Assembly (NCBI RefSeq): GCF_030540875.1
Contig: NZ_JAUOEM010000003.1
Span: 186,001 to 250,000 of the forward strand
From: Flavivirga amylovorans
Lineage (GTDB): Bacteria; Bacteroidota; Bacteroidia; Flavobacteriales; Flavobacteriaceae
Length of the DNA stretch: 64,000 bases
Direction: 5' to 3'
Shown: piece by piece, positions 9,520-23,755 of the stretch
Layout of the letters: every line of letters starts with the position of its first letter
How positions within the stretch are numbered: position 1 is the stretch's first letter
Translations under genes and position numbers: made by a program
Notes under the pieces: generated by a model
The model's database searches: none
What the model was told of the DNA's origin: nothing
Seen by the model: only the letters and a program-made list of their open reading frames with translations

Positions 9520-12500
9520 TTAAAAGTTAGCATTTACTCCAATGGTGAACGTAGGTCTCTGTGTAAAAAATGTAGGCTTGTTTTGTGTAACAATTAAGCC
9601 TTCAGGATCTACATCCCACTTATTGAAATTAATTAGCGCAAGGTTTCTACCTTGTAGATTTATACTCAATCCATTTAAACCAATTTTATTTGCTATTTTT
9701 TGATCCAACTGATAAGATAAAACGACTTCTCTCAATCTAATATGTGAAGCATCATCAATGTTTTGACTGCCATATTTATAGAAATTGGAGTACATAGCTA
9801 GAGTAGCGTCAGCTCTTGTGGTTGGTGTTCTTGGAATGTTTGTGTTAGCCTCATCACCAGGGTTTTGCCATCTGTTCTCAAATTCTTCATGAACAAAATG
9901 ATTGCCACCAAAAATATTTGGCAACTGATTATAATCTAAGAAATCTGGATTTCTAAACACATGACCAAACTTAAAAGTCGCTAGTGCCCTTAAAGTAAAG
10001 CCTTTGTAAGTGAATTGATTTATCCAACTTCCATAAAATTTTGGTAATGTGGTACCCTCATATTTAAGAGCATCAACATTATCAATAACATCATTCACCA
10101 ACTCTCCATTTTCGTTTAAAAATAATGGGTCTCCTTCGTCATTTAACCCTTGGTATTGATAACTATACAAATAACGAAGAGGTGTATTTACTAATGGAGT
10201 TCTAGTTACGGTATACGTAAAAGGAGTATCGTTTGGCACATCAACTTTGGTAACTTCATTTTCATTAAAACTGAAGTTTAGCGTCGTGTTGTAATTAAAC
10301 GATTTAGTTTTTACTACGTCTCCTCTAATTGAAATATCTAGTCCTTTATTTACCATTTCGCCTGCGTTAATTAAGGCCGAATTAAAACCAAGTATTGAAG
10401 GGAAAATAACGTTAGATAGCAATTCCTGACTTTTTCTTTCGTAATATTCAATGCTACCAGAAATACGGTTATTAAATAATCCAAAATCTAAACCTAAATT
10501 TGTAACAAATACTCTTTCTAGTCTTAACTCAGGGTTTTTTACATTAGATATATAAGCAAATGGGTTGCCTGTATTGAAATCACTAGTTACTGTTAATTGC
10601 ACATTGGGACTGGTCTGGTTATTGACATTTCCGTTACTGCCGTAAGTCGCTCTAAGTGCCAAGTTGTTTATAACAGCACTGTTAAAAAAGTCTTCATTAT
10701 GTATGGCCCATTTACCTCCAATAGAGAATAGGGGGATATTTTTATATTCATCACTAGCTCCAAAAAGGTTAGCGTCATCTAAACGAATGCTTCCTGTTAA
10801 AGTATATCTTCTATCATAATCGTAAGAGAAATTCCCATAATAAGAGATAAACCTATCTTCTAGATCACTAATTCTCTCTAAGTTTGGTATGTTTCTCTGA
10901 CCAAAAAAGAATACTGTTGGAAATAAATCAGCATAGTTTATATTGCTATTAAAATCTAATGACTGGTCGTCATAGGCATACAGCCTATTTCCATGCGAAC
11001 TTGATTGTACTTTCCTTACCTCATAACCAGCTAAGGCAGTAACATTATGCAAGTTATCTTTAAAGGACTGATTATAGTTTAATTGCAGTCTTCCTGATTG
11101 AGATTGACTTGTTTCATTATTAAAATCAACCATAGCTCCTTTTGGAATAGCACTTACAATGTCACCAGTAGCATTTCTTGTGGTAAAAGTGTTTACAAGA
11201 TTTCTTACGGTGAATGTATTTTCGTTAAATAAGTTTTTTGTATTTATGTGGCCTCTTTCATATTGATACCTTCCTTCAATTGCCAAATGATCTGTTATAT
11301 TATAATTCAAGGCTCCTTGCAATCTTATTTGCGAATTGGTACTTCTATTATTTTTATTTTCTAATTCTTGTAATAGATTATAGTCCCAATTATAAGGATA
11401 GCCATTTTCTACGCTGCGTTCTTCTTTAAACTCCTCATAAAAACCTCTAGGTTGTGCCAAATAATTACCATTTTCATCAATAATATTTTGATATTGATCC
11501 AAATCTTGTGCGTCAGTCAAACTTAAGCCATTTGGTTTGTTTCTTGTATGAGAATAGTTGATGCCACCCGTAAAACTAAGCTTAGGTGAAAGATCTATTT
11601 GGTTTCTAATATTTGCAATAATTTGGTCTCTATTTGCATGGTTAAATGAGCCAATATTTCTATTTTGGTTATAAGCCAAAGAAACTTGGTAACTGCTGCT
11701 CTGTCCTCCACCGCTAATACCTAAGTTATGTTGCATCCATGTTTCATCAGAAATAAATAGATCTTCAAATTGTTGTCTACTATCAATAGACCTTAGACCA
11801 TTAATTATGTTATTAGCTTCATCTTCGGAAATTAAACCAGCATTTAACTGAAGATAAGTATTTAACCCATTACTAACATTAGAAGAATTAAATGCATTTG
11901 GTAAGGATCTCCATTGGTTGTCGGCTATATGTTTTTCTAAATCTAAAAAACTTGAAGTAGATGCATAGCGTTGCTCGTGTAAGTCCAATTGCGATGTAAT
12001 AGAAAAATTAGAAGCATAACTTACTGAAGTTCTGGTATTTTTATGGCCTTTTTTTGTTACGACTACTATAACTCCATTTGCAGCCCTAATACCCCAAATA
12101 GATGCTGCAGCTGCGTCTTTAAGAATTGTAATACTTTCCACATCATTAGGGTTTATGGTTTCTAAGCCCTGTTCAACAGGAAAGCCATCTATTACAATTA
12201 GTGGTTGGTTAACTGAATTTATAGTACTAATTCCACGTACTACCGCACTTTGTGTTCCATCTGGTGCTTGATCAAAAAGTACACCAGCTACCTCACCTTC
12301 TATTTTATTAAAAACATTTTGAGCAGTTTTAATTCCTAGTGTCTTTTCATTTATATTTTCAAAAGACCCAGTAGCTCTTTCTTTTGATATTTTTTCATAT
12401 CCAGTACTAAGTACGATTTCATCTAAAACATTTGTGTTCTCCTCAAGCACAACATTAATAGTAGTACTATTTTCTACAGGAACTTTTTTTGTTTTATAAC

Positions 12501-13065
12501 CGATATAAGAGAAGATTAGTAGTTCAAATTGACTGGCTTTAATTTTGTACTTACCGTCAAAGTCTGACGATGCACCTCTTATAACAACACTATCACTGTT
12601 AAGAATAGCTATACTGGCTCCTGCAAGTGGCAAGCCATCTTTGTTGGTTATTGTTCCTTGTATTATTTGCTGATCTTCGGAGCGCATTATTCTATTAGGA
12701 TCGGAAAGTTGAATGGTTTCCTCACTTACCAAAGAAAAATTATAGCCTCCTAACGATAATGTCTTTTTTAACAGTGCTTTTGTTCTAATAGTTCCCTTAC
12801 TAAGATTTATCATGGGATAGTTCTTGAACATATCCTCATGGTAAATAAACCTGTAATCGGTTTGGTCGCTGATAATACTAAAAACATCATCTGCTGATAC
12901 TACCGTATCTTCTTCAATCGTAATTTTTGAATTTTGTGACAATACGTTGTTGGGAGATAAACCAAACATTGTAGTACAAAATAGAAATACAAATGTTCTC
13001 ATCATTATTGATAAAATTTTCTTTCTTCTTAATAAAAAAGAACAGCTAGTTAATTTTAGTTCCAT
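9520..13065 (-). CDS. SusC/RagA-family TonB-dependent transporter with STN signalling domain (module A)
   Basis: An 1181-residue outer membrane transporter. In order: an N-terminal membrane/signal segment (about 18-43); an STN secretin/TonB short domain (about 45-118) that passes the loaded state to FecR; a carboxypeptidase-regulatory-like domain (about 133-212; IIQGTITNKDGLPLAGASIA); a plug (about 220-340) with the signature GYEKISKERATGSFE and the VVRGISTINSVNQPLIVIDG block; and a 22-strand-type barrel to the C-terminal Phe. The STN domain together with the adjacent fecR and ECF sigma genes indicates FecA-like surface signalling. The start retains the MELKLTS opening, close to the MEIKLTS of the module B paralogue. 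Confidence 0.94.
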   Translation of the reverse strand: MELKLTSCSFLLRRKKILSIMMRTFVFLFCTTMFGLSPNNVLSQNSKITIEEDTVVSADDVFSIISDQTDYRFIYHEDMFKNYPMINLSKGTIRTKALLKKTLSLGGYNFSLVSEETIQLSDPNRIMRSEDQQIIQGTITNKDGLPLAGASIAILNSDSVVIRGASSDFDGKYKIKASQFELLIFSYIGYKTKKVPVENSTTINVVLEENTNVLDEIVLSTGYEKISKERATGSFENINEKTLGIKTAQNVFNKIEGEVAGVLFDQAPDGTQSAVVRGISTINSVNQPLIVIDGFPVEQGLETINPNDVESITILKDAAAASIWGIRAANGVIVVVTKKGHKNTRTSVSYASNFSITSQLDLHEQRYASTSSFLDLEKHIADNQWRSLPNAFNSSNVSNGLNTYLQLNAGLISEDEANNIINGLRSIDSRQQFEDLFISDETWMQHNLGISGGGQSSSYQVSLAYNQNRNIGSFNHANRDQIIANIRNQIDLSPKLSFTGGINYSHTRNKPNGLSLTDAQDLDQYQNIIDENGNYLAQPRGFYEEFKEERSVENGYPYNWDYNLLQELENKNNRSTNSQIRLQGALNYNITDHLAIEGRYQYERGHINTKNLFNENTFTVRNLVNTFTTRNATGDIVSAIPKGAMVDFNNETSQSQSGRLQLNYNQSFKDNLHNVTALAGYEVRKVQSSSHGNRLYAYDDQSLDFNSNINYADLFPTVFFFGQRNIPNLERISDLEDRFISYYGNFSYDYDRRYTLTGSIRLDDANLFGASDEYKNIPLFSIGGKWAIHNEDFFNSAVINNLALRATYGSNGNVNNQTSPNVQLTVTSDFNTGNPFAYISNVKNPELRLERVFVTNLGLDFGLFNNRISGSIEYYERKSQELLSNVIFPSILGFNSALINAGEMVNKGLDISIRGDVVKTKSFNYNTTLNFSFNENEVTKVDVPNDTPFTYTVTRTPLVNTPLRYLYSYQYQGLNDEGDPLFLNENGELVNDVIDNVDALKYEGTTLPKFYGSWINQFTYKGFTLRALATFKFGHVFRNPDFLDYNQLPNIFGGNHFVHEEFENRWQNPGDEANTNIPRTPTTRADATLAMYSNFYKYGSQNIDDASHIRLREVVLSYQLDQKIANKIGLNGLSINLQGRNLALINFNKWDVDPEGLIVTQNKPTFFTQRPTFTIGVNANF

Positions 13066-13118
13066 AAATTTGCATGTGTTAGTTAATTAATTATTAATTG
13101 ATTAATACTTATCAAAAG

Positions 13119-13167
13119 AGGGTTAATTGGAAAAGTTAGCGGTGAGATGTTGCTTTTCCTTAACCCT
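13119..13167 (-). promoter_or_regulatory. Conserved hairpin between fecR and susC (module A copy)
   Basis: On the + strand the arms are AGGGTTAATTGGAAAAG (13119-13135) and CTTTTCCTTAACCCT (13153-13167), pairing over about 15 bp with a two-base bulge. The loop carries GGTGAGAT (13141-13148). In the transcript, read on the minus strand, the loop shows AUCUCACC. It starts 2 bases after the fecR stop and ends 53 bases before the susC start. Module B has the same layout at 21846-21889 with different stem bases. It could be a leader element, an mRNA-processing site or an attenuator; there is no T-run. Confidence 0.6.
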
Positions 13168-13168
13168 T

Positions 13169-14317
13169 TTAATTTATTATGACTGTTTTATCCTTAATTT
13201 CATAATTGTTTATTATTGTGGTTTGCTTTATTAATTTCAAAATTTCTTCTAAACTTTGATATTTACTTAGTTCTCCAATGAATCTTTCATTTTCTAAACT
13301 CTCATTCTCAAAAACTACGTTTACGTCATACCACCTTTCTATAGTTTTCATGATGGTTTTAAGAGGTAGTTTATTAAAAACAAAATCACCATTTACCCAA
13401 GCTATTTCTTGTTTAATATTTGCTTCTGCAACTAAAATAGTTTTTGTTTTTGAGTGAATAACTGATTGCTCGTTCGGTTTTAAAATTTTTGAATTTATAT
13501 CGGTCGATACTTTTACTTTTCCTTCAACAAGGGTAGTTATAATGTTATCTTCGTCACTGTAAGCTCTTATATTGAATTTTGTACCCAATACCTCAATCTC
13601 TTGGAAGTTATTTAAAACCATAAAATTATCGCCATTATGGTATGTGCTAGGTGATACTTCAAAATAAGCTTCTCCATATACCAGTTCAACGTGTCTAGTT
13701 TCACCATCAATAAAGTTTACAGGGTATTTAAGTTTTGATTCTGAATTTAACCAAACTTGCGTTCCGTCTGATAGCTCAACATTATATTGACCACCTCTTG
13801 GAACGGTTAGGGAATTATATGTTATTTCTGTTATATTAGATTTAGCGTCATTATAAATAATTTTTGTGCCGTTGCTTTTTGCGCTATTGGTTACATAATT
13901 TTGACCTTTCTCTAGAGTAATATTACTACCGTCTTCTAATGTAAGCGTTGCTTTATCCGTGCCTTCTTTAATGGCGTTATTTACAATAATTGGTTGCTGG
14001 CTTGATTCTGACTTGTTTTTTACAAATAATGGAATGGTGATTAGTATTGTTATAGTGGCAGCAACAGCGTATTTCCAGTATGCATGTCTTTTCCTTTTAT
14101 CTTTAATATTATGTTCAATAGCATTCCATACAAGACTTTTGCTGTGATTTTTTCTATGCTTTAATTGTTCGATAGAGAAATTTAAAGCCACATACTCTTG
14201 AAATATGATTTTATTATTTTTGTCTATTAACCAATCGTTAAGTTTCTTTGTTTCTTCATCATTGATTTGATTTGTAAAGTACTTAACGATTAAGGTTTCA
14301 ATTTTTTTGGGTACCAT
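13169..14317 (-). CDS. FecR-family anti-sigma / sigma-regulator protein (module A)
   Basis: A 382-residue inner membrane protein. The cytoplasmic N-terminus (about 1-75) binds the ECF sigma factor. A membrane helix follows (about 80-100; YAVAATITILITIPLF). The periplasmic FecR domain (about 175-285) has VPRGGQY, LSDGTQVWLNSESKLKYP and GEAYFEV. A C-terminal DUF4974-type domain (about 308-382) receives the signal from the STN domain of SusC. It is divergent from its sigma gene and is followed by susC. About two thirds of its visible blocks are shared with the module B FecR, for example GTDKATLTLEDG. Confidence 0.93.
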   Translation of the reverse strand: MVPKKIETLIVKYFTNQINDEETKKLNDWLIDKNNKIIFQEYVALNFSIEQLKHRKNHSKSLVWNAIEHNIKDKRKRHAYWKYAVAATITILITIPLFVKNKSESSQQPIIVNNAIKEGTDKATLTLEDGSNITLEKGQNYVTNSAKSNGTKIIYNDAKSNITEITYNSLTVPRGGQYNVELSDGTQVWLNSESKLKYPVNFIDGETRHVELVYGEAYFEVSPSTYHNGDNFMVLNNFQEIEVLGTKFNIRAYSDEDNIITTLVEGKVKVSTDINSKILKPNEQSVIHSKTKTILVAEANIKQEIAWVNGDFVFNKLPLKTIMKTIERWYDVNVVFENESLENERFIGELSKYQSLEEILKLIKQTTIINNYEIKDKTVIIN

Positions 14318-14389
14318 TTTTAGCTATTTATATATTTTTATACACAATACTATAAAAATACCCCTATTATTATTTTACTTTTTTTAGTT

Positions 14390-14397
14390 TAGCTTTG
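14390..14397 (+). promoter_or_regulatory. Candidate promoter -7 element of the module A sigma gene
   Basis: TAGCTTTG matches the Bacteroidota TAnnTTTG element exactly and lies 13 bases before the ATG at 14411. No clear TTG -33 element is present at the usual spacing, so support is moderate. Confidence 0.4.
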
Positions 14398-14410
14398 TTT
14401 TAAATTGTTA

Positions 14411-14989
14411 ATGAAGAGGAAACAAAAAAATAATTATTCAATAAAGGAGGCCTTTGAAGCGGGCAATAGAGAGGCGTTTAAACTTTTGTTTGAGGCATAT
14501 TATGATAAACTCTTTGTGTATATTAATGGATTTACTAATGACTCTTTTTTAACTCAAGACATTATTCAAGATACTTTTGTTAAACTTTGGAACCGTAGAG
14601 ATAGTTTAAAATTAGAACAATCTGTTACGGGATATTTGTACAAGACAGCATACAACACATTTTGTAACAATTACAGAGACCAGAGAAAAGAATCTAAAAT
14701 GCTTGATAGTTTAACCTATGAAAAAATAACAAATCTATTAAGTGAAGATACTGATGAAAGATTGGCAAAGATTGAAAGAATAAAAGCAGTGATAGAAAAG
14801 TTACCTCCAAAAACGTTAAGAGTGTTTAAAATGAGTAAGTACCAGGGGTATAAATATCATGAGATAGCGAAAGAGTTAAATATTTCAATAAAAACTGTAG
14901 AAAATCAAATGACGAGAGCTTTTGCTTTTATAAGAAAAGAAATGAAGGATAAAGATACTTTTTCACTATTTGTAAGTCTATATTTTTAG
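14411..14989 (+). CDS. ECF RNA polymerase sigma factor, FecI type (module A)
   Basis: A 192-residue sigma-70 family protein. Region 2 (about 20-85) has AYYDKLFVYINGFTND and DIIQDTFVKLWNRR. Region 4 (about 125-180) ends with the HTH YHEIAKELNISIKTVENQM. ATG at 14411 was chosen over a TTG six bases upstream. It is divergent from fecR and should direct transcription of module A when FecR is signalled by SusC. A terminator-like hairpin follows at 15044-15077. Confidence 0.92.
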   Translation: MKRKQKNNYSIKEAFEAGNREAFKLLFEAYYDKLFVYINGFTNDSFLTQDIIQDTFVKLWNRRDSLKLEQSVTGYLYKTAYNTFCNNYRDQRKESKMLDSLTYEKITNLLSEDTDERLAKIERIKAVIEKLPPKTLRVFKMSKYQGYKYHEIAKELNISIKTVENQMTRAFAFIRKEMKDKDTFSLFVSLYF

Positions 14990-15043
14990 GTTTGAAACTC
15001 GTTTTTAACGATAGATTTTCAACTAAATATTTTGAAATAAATT

Positions 15044-15077
15044 AAACCAGAAAAATCTAGTTTCTCTGGTTTTTTTC
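15044..15077 (+). terminator. Rho-independent terminator after the module A sigma gene
   Basis: AAACCAGA (15044-15051) pairs with TCTGGTTT (15065-15072), extended inward by an AAA/TTT stretch with a bulge, and runs into a T-run. It lies 55 bases after the sigma stop. Confidence 0.65.
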
Positions 15078-15214
15078 ATTTTACTATTAATCAATAGTTA
15101 ATATTTCGAAATTGCGCAAAGTATTCCTCTAATTTAGAGGATTACAATATGTTTTGCTTAAAAATACTTTTAACATCGATACTATTGAATTTATAATGTA
15201 CAAAATATTCTATT

Positions 15215-16216
15215 CTATATATTTAATTCTTTAAATAGCACTTTTAATTTATCACTTGAAGGCCTTGGTGCATCTGCATTAACTACATTTCCATTTGGAT
15301 CTATTAAAATAAATCTAGGTATTCCAGAAACTTTATATTCATCAACAAAAGTTTTATCTTCTTTAGCCCACAATTGTATCCCGGATAATGCTTTGTCTTT
15401 AACCATATTTCTCCAAGTATTGTAAGCCTTTTTTTTGTCAATAGAAATACTAACGAAAGCAATATTTTTATCATGATATGCCTTTTCTACTTCTTTTAAA
15501 AAAGGGATTTCTGCTTTACATGGACCACACCAAGTTGCCCACATATCAATATATACGTATTTCCCTTTTAAATCATTTAAGGAAGTAGTACCTCCCGCAT
15601 AGTTTTCATAATCAACAAACTTTGGAGATGCTTGACCTTTTAAAGCTAATAATTGTTTCTTTTGGTACGTTCTCTTTAACATTTCAGTCGTCATTTTAGT
15701 ATTCTTTTTCTCGCTTGCAACAAACGAAGAATCTAAACTTTTAGTAGTTTCTAAAAGTGATGTAACTGATTTTGTATACTCATCCATTGTTCTATCTAAA
15801 CTAGCTTGATCCATAGCCAATAATGTTTCGTAATCGAATAGTCTTTTTTCAAGGATACCTTTTTTAACTAGGTAATTGTTAGCTTCTGCACCATTACCTG
15901 AAAAAACAAGTGTTTCATGAAATTTTTTAGTGTCTAAATTGATATTTAAATCGTATCCGTTTTTTAAATAAATACTGGCACGCTGTTCTCCATCAAAAAG
16001 AATATAATTACCAGTTTCTTCTACCTTTAAAGTGTCTGAAAAATTGCCTTCGGCATCTACTTTCATCTTTTTAATAACACTACGCTTGCCTATTAGTAGA
16101 GAATCTGAACTTTGATTTTTAATAGTTCCCGAAAGAGTGACATAGTCCTTTGTTGATTCTTTTTTACAAGCAACTATTACAATTACAATTGATACAATAC
16201 AAATTAATTTTTTCAT
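15215..16216 (-). CDS. TlpA family thioredoxin lipoprotein, paralogue of the 56.5 kb gene
   Basis: A 333-residue lipoprotein: signal peptide with Cys at residue 17 (VIVACKK), DUF4369-like beta domain (about 25-120), helical linker, then a thioredoxin domain (about 190-333) with W-CGPC-K (C230, C233) and the cis-Pro segment GIPRF. It matches the protein at 56524-57525 end to end, with identical length and identical CGPC position, and clear identity in most blocks (WATWCGPCK, EIPFLKEVEKAYH, DAPRPS). A relic of a dsbD 3' end lies just upstream. The gene therefore derives from the same dsbD-tlpA pair and now sits beside two SusCD modules. Likely role: periplasmic disulfide reduction. Confidence 0.88.
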   Translation of the reverse strand: MKKLICIVSIVIVIVACKKESTKDYVTLSGTIKNQSSDSLLIGKRSVIKKMKVDAEGNFSDTLKVEETGNYILFDGEQRASIYLKNGYDLNINLDTKKFHETLVFSGNGAEANNYLVKKGILEKRLFDYETLLAMDQASLDRTMDEYTKSVTSLLETTKSLDSSFVASEKKNTKMTTEMLKRTYQKKQLLALKGQASPKFVDYENYAGGTTSLNDLKGKYVYIDMWATWCGPCKAEIPFLKEVEKAYHDKNIAFVSISIDKKKAYNTWRNMVKDKALSGIQLWAKEDKTFVDEYKVSGIPRFILIDPNGNVVNADAPRPSSDKLKVLFKELNI

Positions 16217-16234
16217 TGTTTTATTTTTAAATTT

Positions 16235-16309
16235 TTAAATCCCTTCTTTTAACCAAGCATTATACTCATCAACGTTTGGAGTATACGCTACAGGATTTAT
16301 TAAAATTTC
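16235..16309 (-). pseudogene. Relic of the 3' end of a dsbD gene
   Basis: On the minus strand about 24 codons end in TAA 18 bases upstream of the TlpA gene and read LINPVAYTPNVDEYNAWLKE followed by GI and stop. The intact DsbD at 54458-56515 ends [20 protein letters not shown] and then GISNFK. A stop lies directly before the relic. In both places the sequence abuts a tlpA gene of the same family, so this is the surviving tail of a second dsbD-tlpA pair. Confidence 0.75.
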
Positions 16310-16573
16310 TTAATTATAATCCATGGTATTAGAGTGTAGTTTTTTCTTGCTTATATATTGCTATCTGTTTTCACATAGTTTTATTTCTTTGATTAGATAT
16401 TTTGCTAAATATTAATTATAGTATGGGTTTCTGCTACTCCCTTTTTTTAGTATTATAATTAATGCTTTGTTAATTTGTTATAGACGATAAGTTTCACTTA
16501 AACAGGAAGTTATTTTAAATTTTATATCTAGACAAATTCAATATTATACTTCCAAATGTTTAATGGTTTTAAA
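16310..16573. other. Non-coding stretch beside the dsbD relic
   Basis: AT-rich sequence with no open frame of note and no further dsbD similarity that I could read. It presumably replaced the rest of the lost gene. Confidence 0.4.
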
Positions 16574-16718
16574 GATAAAAAAGGCTGTCTAAAAAGTCTA
16601 TAAGTTGTCATTTTGAGCGCAGCCGAAAAATCTCAACACGCTGGTATTCAAAATGTTTAATTTAAAGAGATTCTTCATTTCATTCTGAATGACACTTTTT
16701 TAGACAGCCTCTTTTATC
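16574..16718. repeat. Inverted-repeat element (MITE/REP-like), possible terminator of module B
   Basis: About 145 bases bounded by near-perfect 24/25-base inverted arms, GATAAAA-AAGGCTGTCTAAAAAGT at 16574-16597 and its complement at 16694-16718. A second, inner pair is TTGTCATTTTGAGCG near 16605 and ATTCTGAATGACA near 16682-16694, together with GAAAAATCTC / GAGATTC. The inner TGTCATT..GAGCG..AATCTC pattern resembles a repeat family I know to be scattered through Bacteroidota genomes. It lies 6 bases after the susD stop, so it would fold at the 3' end of the module B transcript. Confidence 0.6.
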
Positions 16719-16724
16719 TTTGTT

Positions 16725-18140
16725 CTACATTCCTAAAGAAACATTATCCCTTTGGTTTTGTTCCCAATCAGGATTAAAATCCATTACGTTTAGGGGGATA
16801 TTTATCACCCAATTGTTAGCATTAGGTGCCATAGGAAAATCTCTACCAAATAGACTACGAGTTAATGTTTCGGTAAAATCGCCAGTAACCATTAACCTTT
16901 TCATATCGAATAAGCGCATATCTCTGAATGCCAATTCCTTTTTTCTTTCATCAAGCACAAAAGAAAGTGCTTCATTCATATCTGAAATATCAGAGGTTGT
17001 TAAATCTGTATATGTTCCAGTAGCAAAACGGAATACTCTAACTGTATTTAAATCATCCAGAATGTTTTGCAAATCTCCTCCTGGAAGCCTCGCTTCACAC
17101 TCAGCTCTAATTAAATATAACTCTGGGACTGAAAGCCCAACATTAATATTACGTTCACTAGCCTCTATGTAAAACTCACCATTATCATTAAATCTGGTAT
17201 TTCTTGTTAAAATTGGAAGCCTTATATCTCCAGTTTCAAAGGAATCTGAGAAATCTGAATCTAAAGAAAAACCACCTCCAAATATTGGATTGCTAGCATA
17301 AGATATACCATTTATCCAGCCAAACCTTTCTTTTAAATAAATAACTTCTGGATTATCAACTATTGCTGGGAATGGTCTATTATTGTAATCATGAATACTA
17401 CTTTTAATTGTTAATGCCAAAGTTGCATTTTCTTTTGCTTTAGTATAATCATGCATAAATAAGTATACTCTTGCTAAAAAAGCATAAGCCATATCCTTAC
17501 CTGGGTAAAAAGTCTTTAGATATTCTGTCTCAGGTAAATCTGGAAGCGCCTCATTCATTTCGGAAACCATATAATCGTAAACTTCTTGAACAGTATGTCT
17601 ATTAGGAATTACCGCATTTAAATTTGGGCTAGTAATAATTGGCACTCCTAGGTCCGTTGAAGCTGTAGCCTGATTATAGGATTTACCAAAAGCATTAACA
17701 GCATCAAAATATTCATAAGCACGAGCTGCTCTTGCCATAGCTACTAACCTTTTTACTTCGTCTTCACTTGCTTCTTCTATGTCTTTACTAGTAGCTTCAT
17801 CAATAATGCTATTATAAACAAAAATTCTTTCATATATATTATCCCAAAGCTGATTGCTTTCGGATGTGCTTTCATCTAAGAAATCCGTTCTTACAAAACG
17901 TCTTAAATTAAATAGACTAGTTGCATTTTTAAATCTATCATCAGCTGAGACTAAATCAGTCATCATAAGCATTGAAAAGGAAGAACGTGCTTGCATAAGG
18001 TCATATTTAATCATTAAAGACTCAAAATGCCCTAAAGTTGTAGGAATGAAAGTTCCATTTGGTTGAACGTTTAAGTAATCTTCACATGAAGTAATGAAAA
18101 CCGTAAAACAAAATATTATGGTATATATTCTTTTTTTCAT
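16725..18140 (-). CDS. SusD/RagB-family nutrient-binding outer membrane lipoprotein (module B)
   Basis: A 471-residue surface lipoprotein with lipobox Cys at about residue 19 (VFITSC) followed by EDYLNVQPNGTFIP. TPR-like helices (ARAARAYEYFDAVNAFG, AFLARVYLFMHDYTKAKENA) and the C-terminal DERKKELAFRDMRLFDMKRL block define the family. It starts 12 bases after susC on the same strand. It is related to the module A SusD but clearly diverged in the ligand-facing middle, so the two modules probably bind different substrates (inference). The gene ends next to the inverted-repeat element. Confidence 0.93.
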   Translation of the reverse strand: MKKRIYTIIFCFTVFITSCEDYLNVQPNGTFIPTTLGHFESLMIKYDLMQARSSFSMLMMTDLVSADDRFKNATSLFNLRRFVRTDFLDESTSESNQLWDNIYERIFVYNSIIDEATSKDIEEASEDEVKRLVAMARAARAYEYFDAVNAFGKSYNQATASTDLGVPIITSPNLNAVIPNRHTVQEVYDYMVSEMNEALPDLPETEYLKTFYPGKDMAYAFLARVYLFMHDYTKAKENATLALTIKSSIHDYNNRPFPAIVDNPEVIYLKERFGWINGISYASNPIFGGGFSLDSDFSDSFETGDIRLPILTRNTRFNDNGEFYIEASERNINVGLSVPELYLIRAECEARLPGGDLQNILDDLNTVRVFRFATGTYTDLTTSDISDMNEALSFVLDERKKELAFRDMRLFDMKRLMVTGDFTETLTRSLFGRDFPMAPNANNWVINIPLNVMDFNPDWEQNQRDNVSLGM

Positions 18141-18152
18141 TTGTTCTAATTT

Positions 18153-21100
18153 TTAGAAGTTAATATTCAAACCAACAGTATAAGAAGTCATAATAGGTAA
18201 CAATCTTGTACCATAAGATAATTCATGAGCTTCTGGGTCTATACCGTCATTATTCGCTGTCCATCTCCAAGGATTATTTACTTGTAAAATTAATTGAGAT
18301 GGACCAATTGATAAACTAGATAAAACAGACTCTGGTATATTATAAATAAGACTTACTTCTCTTAATTTAATATAATCTGCGGATATTACATTAATATCAG
18401 CAAATTGATACAAATTATTGCTTAATATTGGTTCTGTAAAACGTGTTCCAATTCTTGGTACATTGCTAGTAGCTTCATCTCCTGATTGTTTCCAGCGATT
18501 AACCACATCTGCATGCGGTCTAGTAATTTGATTAAAATTAAGGTTAGGAACATCTCTACGCATTACATGCCCAAAACTACCAACAAACATTGTAGATAAC
18601 TCTAAGTTTTTATACCTAAATTGAGATCTAAAACTACCAACCCAATTTGGTACAACAGAACCACTAAAAACAAGCATATCAATTCCAGTTAAATCAGTAT
18701 ACTGGGTTGTTGCTTCTCCATTTACGTCTAAAACTTGCGGCAGCCCTTCTTCACTTATACCGGCCCACTGAAGGCTATACAATCCATTTGCAGGAAGCCC
18801 CGGAGCTGAATATAAACCTCGCAATAAATTTTCTGGGACCTCTTTCCGCTCTGATGTTTCTACATCAAGTACTTCGTTTTTGTTATACGATACTAACATT
18901 GTAGCTCCCCAATAAAAATTTTCTCTCTGTATTAATTTAGTATTGAGTTCAAGTTCAAATCCTTTATTCACAATAGTACCATTATTTGCTGTAACGCGTC
19001 TTATTCCATATGTAGGGTCAATCTCTCTACTAGATAAAACATCAATACTTTTCCTGTGATAAAAATCTAAAGAACCTGATAACTTATAATCAAACAACCC
19101 AAAGTCTAGTTTAATGTTATTGGTTACAGTTTCTTCCCATTTTAGGGCATCGTTTTTTGGGGATTCTATTGTTCCAATTATTTGACCTGCAAAGGCATCA
19201 AAATTTTGTGATATTTGTAGTTCAGGAATTGCTCCCCTAACTACATTACCATTGCTGCCATAGGTATATGCTAACTTTAAATTGTTAATCCAGGAAATAC
19301 TCTCCATAAAGTTTTCTTTAGAAATATTCCAGCCTGCTCCAAGAGACCATAATGGTTGCTGATTAAACCTGGCATTGCCTCCATACAAATTAAAGTTGTC
19401 TACACGGGCACTGGCATTAAGAATATATTTCTTGTCAAAGATGTATCCCATATTCCCAAAATACGAGGCAAACCTATCATCTTGAGATGTTATCTCTCTA
19501 AAATTTTCAAAATCATCAAAATAGAAAGTAAATCTATTCGCATTTAGTGATGGAAAAATAACTCCATTAAGATCATTTATATCTACAGGTTTTTCAATTA
19601 ATGTTGAGGGGTCAAATCCAAATTGGGTTGATTTATAAAATTCATTAAACCTTTTATTAATTTCTCCACCTCCTAGTAATACAATAGAATGTTTACCAAA
19701 AGTTTTGTCATAGTTTAATGTTCCTCTAATAGTATAGGCGTAATTATCTCCTGTATTGACCTGTTGAAGTGCTCCCTCTGGAATTATCTCCTCAACAATA
19801 TCACCAGTAACAAAATCAGTACGAGTAAAGGCAGCTCTTGACTGATTAAGAATTCTTGCATTTTTACTCCAAAAACTCTTATCTGTTCTGCTTCCTCTCT
19901 CATACTGAAAACCTGCGTTAAAAGTTAAATCTTTAGTGATTTTATAGTTAATATTCGTTTGTAATCTTGTTAAAAAAGATTTAAATCCTCTACTTGTTTC
20001 ATCTATATCGTTAAGTAAATTGCTATGAGTTTCTATTCCATATCGATCTAATACAAAATCAGAATGCCTTAGATTAAAAAAACCTCTTAGTCCTAATGGT
20101 TCTCCTATGTAATTTCTAGACTGATTAAGATAGTTACCTTGATCATCTACTAACTGCTCCCAAGGAGCAATTTGATCTATAACAGCTGATCTACCACCTA
20201 CACCTGGTTCCCTTGCAAAAATTGGCGAGTAATCTGCATCTTCGTAAATAAAATTCAACCCTAAACTCGCTGTTAAGCGATCACTAATTTTAAATTCATT
20301 ATTCAATCTAAAATTGATTTTTTCATTTTCATTACCAACATAACCACCTTCTTTAGATAGGTAGTTAAGGGAGGCTCTATAGTTAATTTTATCTCCGCCT
20401 CCTTGAACAGCTAAGTCATGTTGTTGAATAGTTCCAAATGCCAATAGTTTATCTTTAGACTGATCAAAGTTGTCACCCCTAGCTCTAATTTCAGCTACAG
20501 CAGCATCGTACGTAATTTGATCAATAGCTCCATTTCTCAAATCACGCATTAAATAACTTAACTCTGTTGGTCTTGAAGTTTCAATAGTATTAGGGCCAAT
20601 TCCATTAAGTGCATCTCCAAGCACTTCTTCTAAATAATCAATTGTTTCACTTGCATTGGCTTTATTTAAATAGTCTAAATCCCATTTTGGAGTTAACTGA
20701 TGTGTATATCTATAAGATACTTTTGGTACTGAGGCAGAACCTTTTTTTGTTGTAATTACAATAACACCATTAGAAGATTGTGCTCCCCAAATAGATGCCG
20801 CAGCTCCATCTCTCAAAAAAGTAATTTTTTCAATGTTATTTGGGTTAATACTAGATAATCCTTCATCAGTAGGAAAGCCATCAATAACTACCAATGGAGA
20901 AGAGTTTCCTGTAATAGTTGAAATACCACGCATGATCAACCTATTATCGTTATCTGAATCTGGTAAAAAGTTTACCATAAAGTTAGCATCTCCAAAAGTA
21001 GAATTTAAAACTCCGGGAACAAGCCCTTCCAGCCTAGCTTGAACGCTAGTTTCCAATGTTTTTACATCTTTTCCTTTTATTACTGAATAAGAACCAGTAG

Positions 21101-21806
21101 CTCTTTCCTTAGAAATTTTTTGATATCCAGAAGACACCACTACTACCTCGTTTAATTCACTAATACTCTCTTTTAGCGTAATATTGTATACTGTTTGTTC
21201 TGCTTTAATTTGATCTTTGAAAAATTCATATCCTAAACCAGAGACAATTAAATAATGGCCAACATCTGCTTTTATGGTAAATTTACCATCAAAATCTGTT
21301 GATGTGCTTCTCACAACAAAGTCGCTGGATATTTTTTCTGATGTAGGCTCTCTATTTGATACATAAACAGTGATTCTAGATAGTGGTAGATTATTTTCAT
21401 CTGTTACTGTACCAGTTATCACAAGTTCCTGTACCTCTGAAGCTTGACGTATAGTAATAGTGTTATTGGCCGAAATATTAAATTTGAAATCTCCTTTAGA
21501 AAGGCTTTTTTCTAATAATCTATTAGCGTTTATTACCCCTTTTTTCACATTTATTTTGGGATAATCTTTAAACATGCCAGATTTGTAGATAAAATTAAAA
21601 TCTGTTTGGGTTTTTATAATTTTAAAAACCTCATCAACGCTTATGGTTCTATCTGCATCAATCTTGATTTTTGCATTTTGAGAGAATACCCCATCTGATG
21701 TTAAGCTAAAGACTGTAGAACAAAATAAGAGTATAAATGTTCTCATAATAAATTTTAGTAAGTTCTTTCGTTTGAAAGAAAGAACACTTGTTAATTTAAT
21801 TTCCAT
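18153..21806 (-). CDS. SusC/RagA-family TonB-dependent transporter with STN signalling domain (module B)
   Basis: A 1217-residue outer membrane transporter built like the module A protein. It has an N-terminal segment opening MEIKLTS, an STN domain (about 45-115) and a carboxypeptidase-regulatory-like domain (about 128-212; VITGTVTDENNLPLSRITVY). The plug has the signature GYQKISKERATGSYS, IMRGISTITGNSSPLVVIDG and DGAAASIWGAQSSNGVIVITTKKG. The barrel ends in Phe. The STN domain and the adjacent fecR and ECF sigma genes indicate surface signalling. The shared QKISKERATGS plug signature and synteny show that modules A and B arose by duplication. Confidence 0.94.
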   Translation of the reverse strand: MEIKLTSVLSFKRKNLLKFIMRTFILLFCSTVFSLTSDGVFSQNAKIKIDADRTISVDEVFKIIKTQTDFNFIYKSGMFKDYPKINVKKGVINANRLLEKSLSKGDFKFNISANNTITIRQASEVQELVITGTVTDENNLPLSRITVYVSNREPTSEKISSDFVVRSTSTDFDGKFTIKADVGHYLIVSGLGYEFFKDQIKAEQTVYNITLKESISELNEVVVVSSGYQKISKERATGSYSVIKGKDVKTLETSVQARLEGLVPGVLNSTFGDANFMVNFLPDSDNDNRLIMRGISTITGNSSPLVVIDGFPTDEGLSSINPNNIEKITFLRDGAAASIWGAQSSNGVIVITTKKGSASVPKVSYRYTHQLTPKWDLDYLNKANASETIDYLEEVLGDALNGIGPNTIETSRPTELSYLMRDLRNGAIDQITYDAAVAEIRARGDNFDQSKDKLLAFGTIQQHDLAVQGGGDKINYRASLNYLSKEGGYVGNENEKINFRLNNEFKISDRLTASLGLNFIYEDADYSPIFAREPGVGGRSAVIDQIAPWEQLVDDQGNYLNQSRNYIGEPLGLRGFFNLRHSDFVLDRYGIETHSNLLNDIDETSRGFKSFLTRLQTNINYKITKDLTFNAGFQYERGSRTDKSFWSKNARILNQSRAAFTRTDFVTGDIVEEIIPEGALQQVNTGDNYAYTIRGTLNYDKTFGKHSIVLLGGGEINKRFNEFYKSTQFGFDPSTLIEKPVDINDLNGVIFPSLNANRFTFYFDDFENFREITSQDDRFASYFGNMGYIFDKKYILNASARVDNFNLYGGNARFNQQPLWSLGAGWNISKENFMESISWINNLKLAYTYGSNGNVVRGAIPELQISQNFDAFAGQIIGTIESPKNDALKWEETVTNNIKLDFGLFDYKLSGSLDFYHRKSIDVLSSREIDPTYGIRRVTANNGTIVNKGFELELNTKLIQRENFYWGATMLVSYNKNEVLDVETSERKEVPENLLRGLYSAPGLPANGLYSLQWAGISEEGLPQVLDVNGEATTQYTDLTGIDMLVFSGSVVPNWVGSFRSQFRYKNLELSTMFVGSFGHVMRRDVPNLNFNQITRPHADVVNRWKQSGDEATSNVPRIGTRFTEPILSNNLYQFADINVISADYIKLREVSLIYNIPESVLSSLSIGPSQLILQVNNPWRWTANNDGIDPEAHELSYGTRLLPIMTSYTVGLNINF

Positions 21807-21845
21807 AAATTTGTGTGTTAGTTAATTTATTAATTGACGTGTTAG

Positions 21846-21889
21846 GGAAATTGAGGTTTGTTTGGTGAGATATTCTAACCTCTTTTTCC
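21846..21889 (-). promoter_or_regulatory. Conserved hairpin between fecR and susC (module B copy)
   Basis: On the + strand the arms are GGAAATTGAGGTT (21846-21858) and AACCTCTTTTTCC (21877-21889), pairing 5 + 6 bp around a 2x2 internal loop. The loop carries GGTGAGAT (21864-21871). The octamer starts 5 bases after the left arm, exactly as in module A, and 5 bases (4 in A) separate it from the right arm. Stem sequences differ between modules, loop octamers are identical. It lies 13 bases after the fecR stop and 39 before the susC start. Confidence 0.58.
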
Positions 21890-21902
21890 TTTATTTTTAG
21901 TA

Positions 21903-23054
21903 CTACCTAAAAATGATAGTGTCGTTGTTTATTTCATATGTAATATTATTTATAGTTCTAATAATTTCTAATATTTCTTTTATACTTTGATTTTTTCTTA
22001 AAATTCCTGTGAATAGGATGTCTTTAAGGGTTGGGTCTACAAAAATCACATTAAAATCATACCATCTGGCTAACACTTTCATGATTTTATCAAGAGGCAT
22101 GTCTTCAAAACTAAAGATGCCTTCCTTCCAAGAGATTGCTGAGAACGTATCTACGTTCACTACTTCAATTCCAGAAGTATTCTGTTTAATTATAGCTTGT
22201 TGATTTGGACTTAAACTGGTACTAGAGGCGCCATTTACGATATTCACTTTACCCTCAACAAGCGTTGAGTATATGTAGGCTTCATATTTGTAGGCTTTAA
22301 TATTAAACTCAGTGCCTAGAACCTCTAATTCTTGGTTGTCTGTAATGACACTAAATTTTGCACCATCGTGCTCGCTACTTGGAGATACATCAAAGTAAGC
22401 CTCTCCGTATATTAATTCTACCTTTCTTAATGCTCCGCTAATAAAATTTGTTGGGTATTTAAGTTTTGATTCTGAATTTAACCACACCTTAGTGCCATCA
22501 GAAAGTTTTACGTAATACTGTCCTCCTCTTGGTACGGTTAAATAGTTATAAGCTATTTCTGTTTTAACAGAATTGGTTTTTTCATAAATGATCTTTGTAC
22601 CATCACTCTTTATATTATCAGTAACATAACTTTGATCTTTTACTAAAGTTATATCTGTACCATCTTCTAATGTAAGTGTTGCTTTATCTGTACCTTTTTT
22701 AATGGTATTATTTACAATGATAGGCTCGTGGTTTACTTTTTGTGTATTATTTTTTATTAATAAAGGAAGAGAAATAAGAATTGCTATAACAGCTGCCGCA
22801 GCATATTTAAATACGCTTCTCTTATACAAAGGTATTTTCTTTAATGGCATGCTAGTTTCTTCTATCCTTTTAATCACTCCCGCAAAAGCTTCATCAATAT
22901 TAGCTTTAGACTGACTTAAGTTTATATCGTAATTGTCTCTAATATAATTTTCGAGCGTTATTTGATTTTGAGAATCTTCTAACCATTTTTGAAGTTCTCT
23001 GAGCTCAGCATCGGTGATTGTACGATTTAAAACTTTATATATTAAATATTTCAT
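21903..23054 (-). CDS. FecR-family anti-sigma / sigma-regulator protein (module B)
   Basis: A 383-residue inner membrane protein. The N-terminal sigma-binding part (about 1-78) is followed by a membrane helix (about 84-102; YAAAAVIAILISLPLLI). The periplasmic FecR domain (about 170-285) has VPRGGQYYVKLSDGTKVWLN and GEAYFDVSPSS. A DUF4974-like end (about 310-383; FEDMPLDKIMKVLARWYDFN) follows. It is divergent from its ECF sigma gene and upstream of susC, as in module A. It should hold the sigma factor inactive or prime it until SusC signals. Confidence 0.93.
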   Translation of the reverse strand: MKYLIYKVLNRTITDAELRELQKWLEDSQNQITLENYIRDNYDINLSQSKANIDEAFAGVIKRIEETSMPLKKIPLYKRSVFKYAAAAVIAILISLPLLIKNNTQKVNHEPIIVNNTIKKGTDKATLTLEDGTDITLVKDQSYVTDNIKSDGTKIIYEKTNSVKTEIAYNYLTVPRGGQYYVKLSDGTKVWLNSESKLKYPTNFISGALRKVELIYGEAYFDVSPSSEHDGAKFSVITDNQELEVLGTEFNIKAYKYEAYIYSTLVEGKVNIVNGASSTSLSPNQQAIIKQNTSGIEVVNVDTFSAISWKEGIFSFEDMPLDKIMKVLARWYDFNVIFVDPTLKDILFTGILRKNQSIKEILEIIRTINNITYEINNDTIIFR

Positions 23055-23176
23055 AATTAAATGTATAATTTGGGGTTTTGAGTTTTTCTTTTAATTTAAT
23101 AGCGTGACTCTTTTTTTTAGAAAAACCCCCAAAAAAAAATATTTTTTTTTTAATCTTTGAGAAACTTTTAAATTTT

Positions 23177-23755
23177 ATGAATGAAAAAGATGCCATAAAA
23201 AGGTTGCGAGAAGGGGATAAAACGGCATTTAAATATTTGTTCGAATTATTTTACGATAGGCTAGTAGCCTATATACTTACCTATACTAACGACAAAATGC
23301 TAGCTGAAGATATTGTGCAGCAAGTATTTTTGAATCTATGGAATGGAAGGGCTAAACTTAATGAAATTAAAAACCCGAAAAGCTACTTATACACAATGGT
23401 TTATAATCTTTTTATAGATAGCAGGAAACATGAAAAAAAAGTGAATAAACTTTTAGACAATATTTATGAGAAGGCTCTAAGAGAAAGGATTAAAGAAGAT
23501 AAGTCTCTCATTGATTTAAGAATTAAAAAAATGAATGCTATCATAGAAACCTTACCTCCAAAATGTAGAGAAATACTTAAAATGAATAAGGTACAAGGTT
23601 TTAAGTATAAAGAGATTGCAGAAATTTTAGGGATTTCTATCAAAACGGTGGAAAATCAAATGGGGTTGGCTTATAAAAAAGTTAGAAAAGCATTTGAAAA
23701 CCCCTCATTAATCTTATTCCTTATTAAGTCAAGAAATCTATTAAAATTTAATTAA
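23177..23755 (+). CDS. ECF RNA polymerase sigma factor, FecI type (module B)
   Basis: A 192-residue sigma factor. Region 2 (about 14-80) has LFYDRLVAYILTYTND and DIVQQVFLNLWNGR. Region 4 (about 120-175) has PPKCREILKMNKVQGFKYKEIAEILGISIKTV. It is divergent from fecR. Just upstream, an AATCTTTG sequence (23152-23159) is close to, but not an exact match for, TAnnTTTG. A C-rich tract preceded by AAAAA lies about 25 bases before that CTTTG, and a similar AAAAATACCCC lies at a like distance in module A. It should drive module B expression. Confidence 0.92.
   Translation: MNEKDAIKRLREGDKTAFKYLFELFYDRLVAYILTYTNDKMLAEDIVQQVFLNLWNGRAKLNEIKNPKSYLYTMVYNLFIDSRKHEKKVNKLLDNIYEKALRERIKEDKSLIDLRIKKMNAIIETLPPKCREILKMNKVQGFKYKEIAEILGISIKTVENQMGLAYKKVRKAFENPSLILFLIKSRNLLKFN

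Follow-up and report, generated by a model that had tools for sequence, protein, structure and literature searches.

Hairpins between fecR and susC in Flavivirga amylovorans as probable terminators of antisense RNAs opposite the susC start

SusC-type transporters are the main glycan-uptake systems of the Bacteroidota. In Bacteroides, RNAs of the DonS family, 78-128 nt long, lie antisense and divergent to susC and lower susC expression (PMC7366714); they also lower the expression of their polysaccharide utilization locus (PUL), by a mechanism described as unknown (PMC11697453, PMC7366714). In B. thetaiotaomicron 32 PUL-associated antisense RNAs have been annotated, which correlate both negatively and positively with their PULs (PMC10994844). 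For flavobacteria, PMC9723704 cites the Bacteroides case and presents its list of flavobacterial antisense RNAs as a starting point, and the available part of that report describes no such RNA family there. Here we consider a stretch of 64,000 nt from Flavivirga amylovorans (NZ_JAUOEM010000003.1, 186,001-250,000; "the window" below), in which two hairpins, A and B (locus labels L001 and L003), each lie between a fecR and a susC gene. From sequence comparison we think it very probable that they are the 3' intrinsic terminators of cis-antisense RNAs of 80-100 nt, which overlap the susC start and probably damp it. A preliminary description of the two hairpins knew of no named element with this form, but DonS and the 32 B. 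thetaiotaomicron RNAs share their position (PMC7366714, PMC10994844). A literature search (DonS, antisense, susC, flavobacteria), judged by title or start of abstract and with most subscription journals outside its scope, gave no report describing the element in flavobacteria.

The window holds two adjacent modules of extracytoplasmic function (ECF) sigma factor, FecR, SusC and SusD, with one hairpin in each fecR-susC gap (A at 13119-13167, B at 21846-21889); the gaps are bordered by the fecR stop codons at 13169 and 21903 and the susC starts at 13065 and 21806. As the preliminary description had it, the mRNA-strand fold has 15 bp and a 17-nt loop in A, and 5 + 6 bp and an 18-nt loop in B, and the octamer GGTGAGAT (13141-13148 and 21864-21871) begins 5 nt past the left arm in both. 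Both hairpins beat dinucleotide shuffles on the mRNA strand (z -3.1 to -3.5), and B does so on the + strand as well (z -2.8). The energy is lower on the + strand than on the mRNA strand, -23.6 vs -15.4 kcal/mol for A and -16.6 vs -10.8 kcal/mol for B. A T-run follows each hairpin on the + strand; on the mRNA strand no terminator-like site is found in B, and that of A is weaker (-14.7 in sense, -23.3 in antisense). The parts of the two modules, in window coordinates, are as follows.

13065..13072, + strand: -7 box predicted for sigma-A, TAAATTTG (TAnnTTTG), belonging to antisense RNA A, from the sequence; the T with which it begins lies opposite the A of the susC ATG.
13077..13172, + strand: predicted cis-antisense small RNA A, about 95 nt, inferred from box and terminator, with the 5' end placed 12 nt beyond the start of the box, which then spans -12 to -5, and the 3' end by the T-run.
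13076..13108, + strand: A+T-rich 5' stem-loop of predicted RNA A, an inverted repeat (13076-13091 / 13093-13108) that is consensus helix 1 of the alignments A1 and A2 described below, complementary to the susC leader upstream of the start codon.
13116..13170, + strand: terminator hairpin of predicted RNA A, with GGTGAGAT in the loop region and the T-run at 13167-13170; it includes hairpin A at 13119-13167.
9520..13065, - strand: susC A, a TonB-dependent SusC/RagA-type outer-membrane protein and the presumed target (Pfam Plug, CarbopepD_reg_2; TIGR04056 match at G000:C7:195523-198663).
13169..14317, - strand: fecR A, anti-sigma regulator, upstream of susC on the same strand (PF16344, PF04773).
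14405..14989, + strand: ECF sigma factor A, divergent from fecR (PF08281, PF04542, PF07638).
21806..21813, + strand: -7 box predicted for sigma-A, TAAATTTG, belonging to antisense RNA B, from the sequence.
21818..21897, + strand: predicted cis-antisense small RNA B, about 80 nt, placed from box and terminator as for A.
21845..21890, + strand: terminator hairpin of predicted RNA B, with GGTGAGAT in the loop region and TTATTTTT after it; it includes hairpin B at 21846-21889.
18153..21806, - strand: susC B, presumed target (Pfam Plug, CarbopepD_reg_2).
21903..23054, - strand: fecR B (PF16344, PF04773).
23177..23755, + strand: ECF sigma factor B, divergent from fecR (PF08281, PF04542, PF07638).

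The preliminary description misread the strand of the structure: the hairpin belongs to the + strand, antisense to fecR-susC. The evidence comes from fecR-susC gaps at large, in which we scored as a terminator any hairpin of -10 kcal/mol or lower that is followed by a T-tract, searching 220 nt. A search with the FecR C-terminal domain gave 33 matches in the F. amylovorans genome; the first 23 were scored, and 21 of them had a SusC-like start downstream within range (L024 and L026, beyond the first 23, have no gap before the next open reading frame, ORF). Relatives were sampled from 12 genomes of the genus, 7 named Flavobacteriaceae contigs (Seonamhaeicola, Maribacter, Arenibacter and Aestuariivivens among them), 61 genomes of the phylum and 60 extra stretches; for FecR places of the genus without a locus, 60 were fetched and the rest omitted, one of them with an internal stop. 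Pooled with the F. amylovorans genome this gave 142 FecR places and 115 usable gaps, 27 places being dropped for want of a SusC-like start. An antisense terminator was found in 106 of the 115 gaps and a sense one in 9. By group, the antisense counts are 21/21 in F. amylovorans, 66/69 in the genus, 7/7 in the named contigs and 12/18 in the phylum sample, where the six gaps lacking it are all only 10-54 nt long. In 103 of the 115 gaps the antisense terminator lies 15-85 nt from the susC ATG, opposite and overlapping the 5' region of the susC homologue; 86 of the 106 hairpins begin 40-60 nt from the ATG, and in F. amylovorans 18 of 21 begin 40-57 nt from it. The same anatomy is thus present in the same gap of most paralogues and relatives examined.

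Seven of the 27 dropped places were re-inspected by eye, and the element was seen in L115 and L118. A class-level FecR search with a strict cut-off added four loci, again judged by eye, of which L214 has the element and L216 has no gap. Two of the dropped places are in F. amylovorans; at one of them, L012, the stretch downstream of FecR has a weak match (L059, C1:940411-940525, E 0.155) to the covariance model R1 described below, with the common box missing.

As a control we took 15 SusC leaders without FecR, from 30 fetched loci of 57 SusC-family matches in the F. amylovorans genome. The same rule gave 1/15 on the antisense and 1/15 on the sense strand, and a looser one (cut at -8, 300-nt leaders) 4 and 5. 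The sole antisense-positive control, L034, carries the same element at 51 nt, and its upstream ORF looks sigma-factor-like by eye.

The fold points to the same strand. Alignment A1, made of 60 elements with a common box start and the basis of R1, has a consensus of two hairpins, an A+T-rich 5' stem and then the terminator. Of the stem cells that can pair on one strand only, 265 do so on the antisense RNA (G-U) and 34 would do so on the mRNA; these counts use the antisense-strand structure and so favour that strand, but the minimum free energy is independent of that structure and is lower on the antisense strand in 60/60 elements, where its margin is also above that of composition shuffles in 60/60. 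Alignment A2 holds 28 family loci that had no part in building the model. None of them repeats an A1 row exactly over its first 80 nt, L206 coming nearest with a similarity of 0.94 to L090. A2 was aligned to the model structure, which favours it. Of its stem cells 92.1% pair; at 14 of 18 pairs both sides have changed with pairing kept (shuffled mean 6.0), 44 cells are changed on both sides (14.8 when shuffled), and none of 500 shuffles came as high for these values. Antisense-only G-U cells in A2 number 115, against 14 A-C cells. That stems change and still pair under selection on RNA structure was the central idea of the preliminary description, and selection on structure is supported here. 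Both checks it proposed, covariation and octamer enrichment in other fecR-susC gaps, came out positive: the both-side changes lie beyond all 500 shuffles and the octamer is enriched, so that the idea does not fall on these grounds. Anatomy, strand, covariation, position and conservation of the predicted element are all supported by comparison.

R1 matches 18 places in the F. amylovorans genome at E up to 1. They include RNA A (G000:C7:199063-199176, + strand, E 1.4e-5) and RNA B (G000:C7:207804-207899, + strand, E 2.7e-5), both being themselves part of the model alignment; the 12 class-1 gaps are all among the 18, as are an additional copy in the gap of L020 and a pair of contig-13 SusC genes without adjacent FecR. 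The predicted ends of the 12 class-1 RNAs give lengths of 79-100 nt. In the family 33 of 149 genomes were matched at E up to 0.01 with strict filters, and all 30 fetched family loci have the match antisense between SusC and FecR (tblastn, one on each side). The second element of the L020 gap (C7:63294-63389, E 0.028) is antisense and weaker, lies in a fecR-susC gap of 451 nt, and is possibly the remnant of a lost module. On contig C13 two very similar SusC leaders (L057, L060) have the antisense element, and the upstream ORF ends, by eye, like a secreted protein sorted by the type IX secretion system (T9SS) and not like FecR. L057 lacks the TAAATTTATG stretch that holds the box, and its reading frame appears to begin at an ATG just upstream.

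The other end of the predicted RNA is marked by a box at the susC start codon. For sigma-A of flavobacteria the -7 consensus is TAnnTTTG (PMC9723704), and this motif stands at one fixed place in 80 of the 115 gaps, where its first T coincides with the last base of the CAT complementary to the start codon; TAnnTTT is found there in 95. Only one of the 15 control leaders (L034) has the box at that position, and when 24 gene starts of the window were checked, CAAANNTATG was found at the two susC only. The -7 box would thus overlap the complement of the susC start codon, and the predicted antisense RNA begins about 12 nt from it.

The loop is less constant than the preliminary description suggested. 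Modules A and B do share GGTGAGAT, and it occurs in 5 of 107 related hairpins (28 new loci included) against 0.07 expected from shuffles; among the 115 gaps, 4 have it in their antisense hairpin. The window as a whole has 3 matches where 1.23 are expected, a count that 11 of 100 shuffles also reach, so that the octamer is unusual because of its place in the hairpin and not for rarity in the window. The five hairpins are both window copies, L065, L090 and L206, the last from another genus. L206 resembles module B more than module A (SusC 48% vs 37%, FecR 53% vs 48%) and retains TTTGTTTGGTGAGATATTC whole; L065 is nearer to module A by bit score. Other central 8-mers are commoner among the 107 hairpins, ACTTTCCA (9), ACTTTTGC (8) and ACGGTCTA (7), and GGTGAGAT therefore marks one loop type within a family that has several. 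As a universal signature the octamer is rejected, ranking 20th (tied) among central 8-mers. YUNR motifs in the loops were likewise set aside, as they would be expected too often by chance. Arms share 8-mers in 721 of 5671 hairpin pairs and centres in 380 (shuffled centres 23.2), the arms being longer, and a changed stem with a fixed loop is for this reason true within a subgroup only.

Transcription, pairing and repression are the parts that we infer, from the anatomy and by analogy with DonS. We hypothesize that a predicted sigma-A promoter opposite the operon would start a small RNA of about 80-100 nt, some 12 nt from the susC start codon. The RNA would form the A+T-rich 5' stem-loop, and the G+C-rich intrinsic terminator would end it at or near the fecR stop codon. 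Its complementarity to the susC leader would be complete up to about 12 bases from the start codon, and for this reason the fecR-susC-susD mRNA is its most likely pairing partner, with first contact perhaps made by the complementary hairpin loops. A duplex over the A+T-rich leader, where ribosomes start, could block susC translation, or the double strand could be cleaved between fecR and susC; FecR would be spared while SusC falls. Transporter output would then stay low until the ECF sigma/FecR switch lifts the mRNA above the antisense RNA, and damping of susC expression is the likely role of the element. The preliminary description had also thought of the hairpin as a target of a small RNA, which is close, but the predicted small RNA is encoded by the locus itself, on the other strand.

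A more tentative and rather doubtful extension is a network across PULs, in which the shared 5' domain and the loop types would let antisense RNAs pair with the susC leaders of other PULs, the loop type defining the group; the many transporters that a flavobacterium has under ECF/FecR control would in this way inhibit one another through RNA. The octamer shared by modules A and B counts as support for it. In silico, with accessibility ignored, the duplex energy of class-1 RNAs of F. amylovorans averages -29.1 kcal/mol over 132 pairings with the leaders of other class-1 susC genes; the corresponding values are -18.7 with leaders of SusC lacking FecR, -19.9 with shuffled leaders and -73.8 in cis.

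Several observations weigh against the antisense RNA as we propose it. Paralogues are related and the gap counts are not independent, and the guided alignment of A2 has been mentioned. Nine of the 115 gaps lack an antisense terminator, three of the 106 terminators (L096, L125, L153) lie outside 15-85 nt and may be other hairpins, and by eye the element is absent from several loci of distant lineages (L104, L106, L107, L113 and L121 of the re-inspected places, and L215 and L217 of the class-level search). The -33 element is weak, with TTG at -31 in 14 of 84, though according to PMC7366714 no such element was identified in F. johnsoniae either. Finally, the B. thetaiotaomicron antisense RNAs correlate both ways with their PULs, and repression is thus not certain.

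Three other explanations have to be considered. The loop and arm bases could be the -35 and -10 of a sense-strand ECF-sigma promoter for susC, with the symmetry of the hairpin as a by-product. Similar loops do accompany similar FecR and SusC in the few cases compared (L206 and L090, nearer to B), as sigma specificity predicts, some sense loops contain CGTC (L002, L005), and an ECF-type motif of F. psychrophilum has a CGT box at -10 (PMC9723704). However, no central 8-mer is found in more than 15 of the 107 hairpins, and such a promoter predicts neither the T-tract, the antisense -7 box, the compensatory changes nor the strand asymmetry. We regard it as improbable as the explanation of the hairpins, although a promoter of this kind could coexist with an antisense RNA. 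It is similarly improbable that the + strand terminator only halts stray antisense transcription before fecR, with no regulatory RNA; antisense transcription is called pervasive in F. psychrophilum (PMC9723704), but this would not account for a -7 box fixed at the start codon, for covariation in a conserved 5' stem or for the narrow spacing between promoter and terminator. The weakest follows the roles that the preliminary description held possible: the hairpin would act within the fecR-susC mRNA, be it as leader, attenuator or processing site, and fix the FecR:SusC ratio. The hairpin pairs on that strand too, the mRNA has to take on some fold at the site that the antisense RNA would occupy, and 9 gaps have a terminator-like sense site, but 106 of the 115 have none, the 265 antisense G-U cells would be A-C mismatches on the mRNA, the antisense energy is lower in every A1 element, and we reject a sense-strand attenuator or processing hairpin on these strand tests.

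If most of the SusC governed by ECF sigma and FecR have an antisense RNA of their own, control by RNA would be a standard layer of nutrient uptake well outside Bacteroides. R1 makes the element searchable and a laboratory flavobacterium would make it testable; a promoter placed at the start codon offers a way to silence such an RNA without altering the SusC protein.

Some further features of the window may be mentioned. The Pfam search of both SusC found no STN domain at E 1e-3, which leaves the label "STN-type" of the preliminary description unconfirmed. The sigma-fecR intergenic region of module B (23070-23140) has complementary stretches of the GGGGTTTT / AAAAACCCCC type that were not seen in the matching region of module A. 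An ORF at 28025-30823 has a long run of near-identical A/K/E-rich repeats (KADEEARLKREADAAAA) and adjoins an ORF of 4398 aa with repeated stretches.

Stem-loop antisense RNAs complementary to a leader are familiar from CopA/CopT of plasmid R1 and from FinP/traJ. The present predicted RNA would be alike in this respect, and its pairing might, as said, start from loop to loop. The FopS RNAs of B. thetaiotaomicron (FopS/GibS) are likewise short and multicopy, and the 5' part of FopS pairs with susC translation starts while a terminator hairpin forms the 3' end (PMC11697453). In contrast to the present element they act in trans, 9 of 14 are intergenic, and RbpB, a protein with an RNA recognition motif (RRM), opposes FopS (PMC11697453). 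A partner of the RRM/RbpB kind is rejected here, the F. amylovorans genome having no RRM_1 (PF00076) match at E 0.001 where a Bacteroides ihuae control was positive, and any RNA-binding partner would therefore differ from RbpB. FopS has been deposited in Rfam according to PMC11697453; a scan of the window with Rfam 15, which may or may not include FopS, gave 0 matches at E up to 1. The closest likeness is to DonS and the other PUL antisense RNAs of Bacteroides, which are antisense and divergent to susC, multicopy and one per locus (PMC7366714, PMC10994844, PMC11697453), and the predicted lengths of 79-100 nt compare well with the 78-128 nt reported for DonS (PMC7366714). Like DonS, the present element is expected to lower the expression of its own PUL. 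It differs in occurring in Flavobacteriaceae and, within the class, in a few further families, and is likened to DonS by description and not by sequence. Its own marks, against a DonS compared by description only, are the -7 box over the susC start codon, the conserved fold of two hairpins and a specific covariance model.

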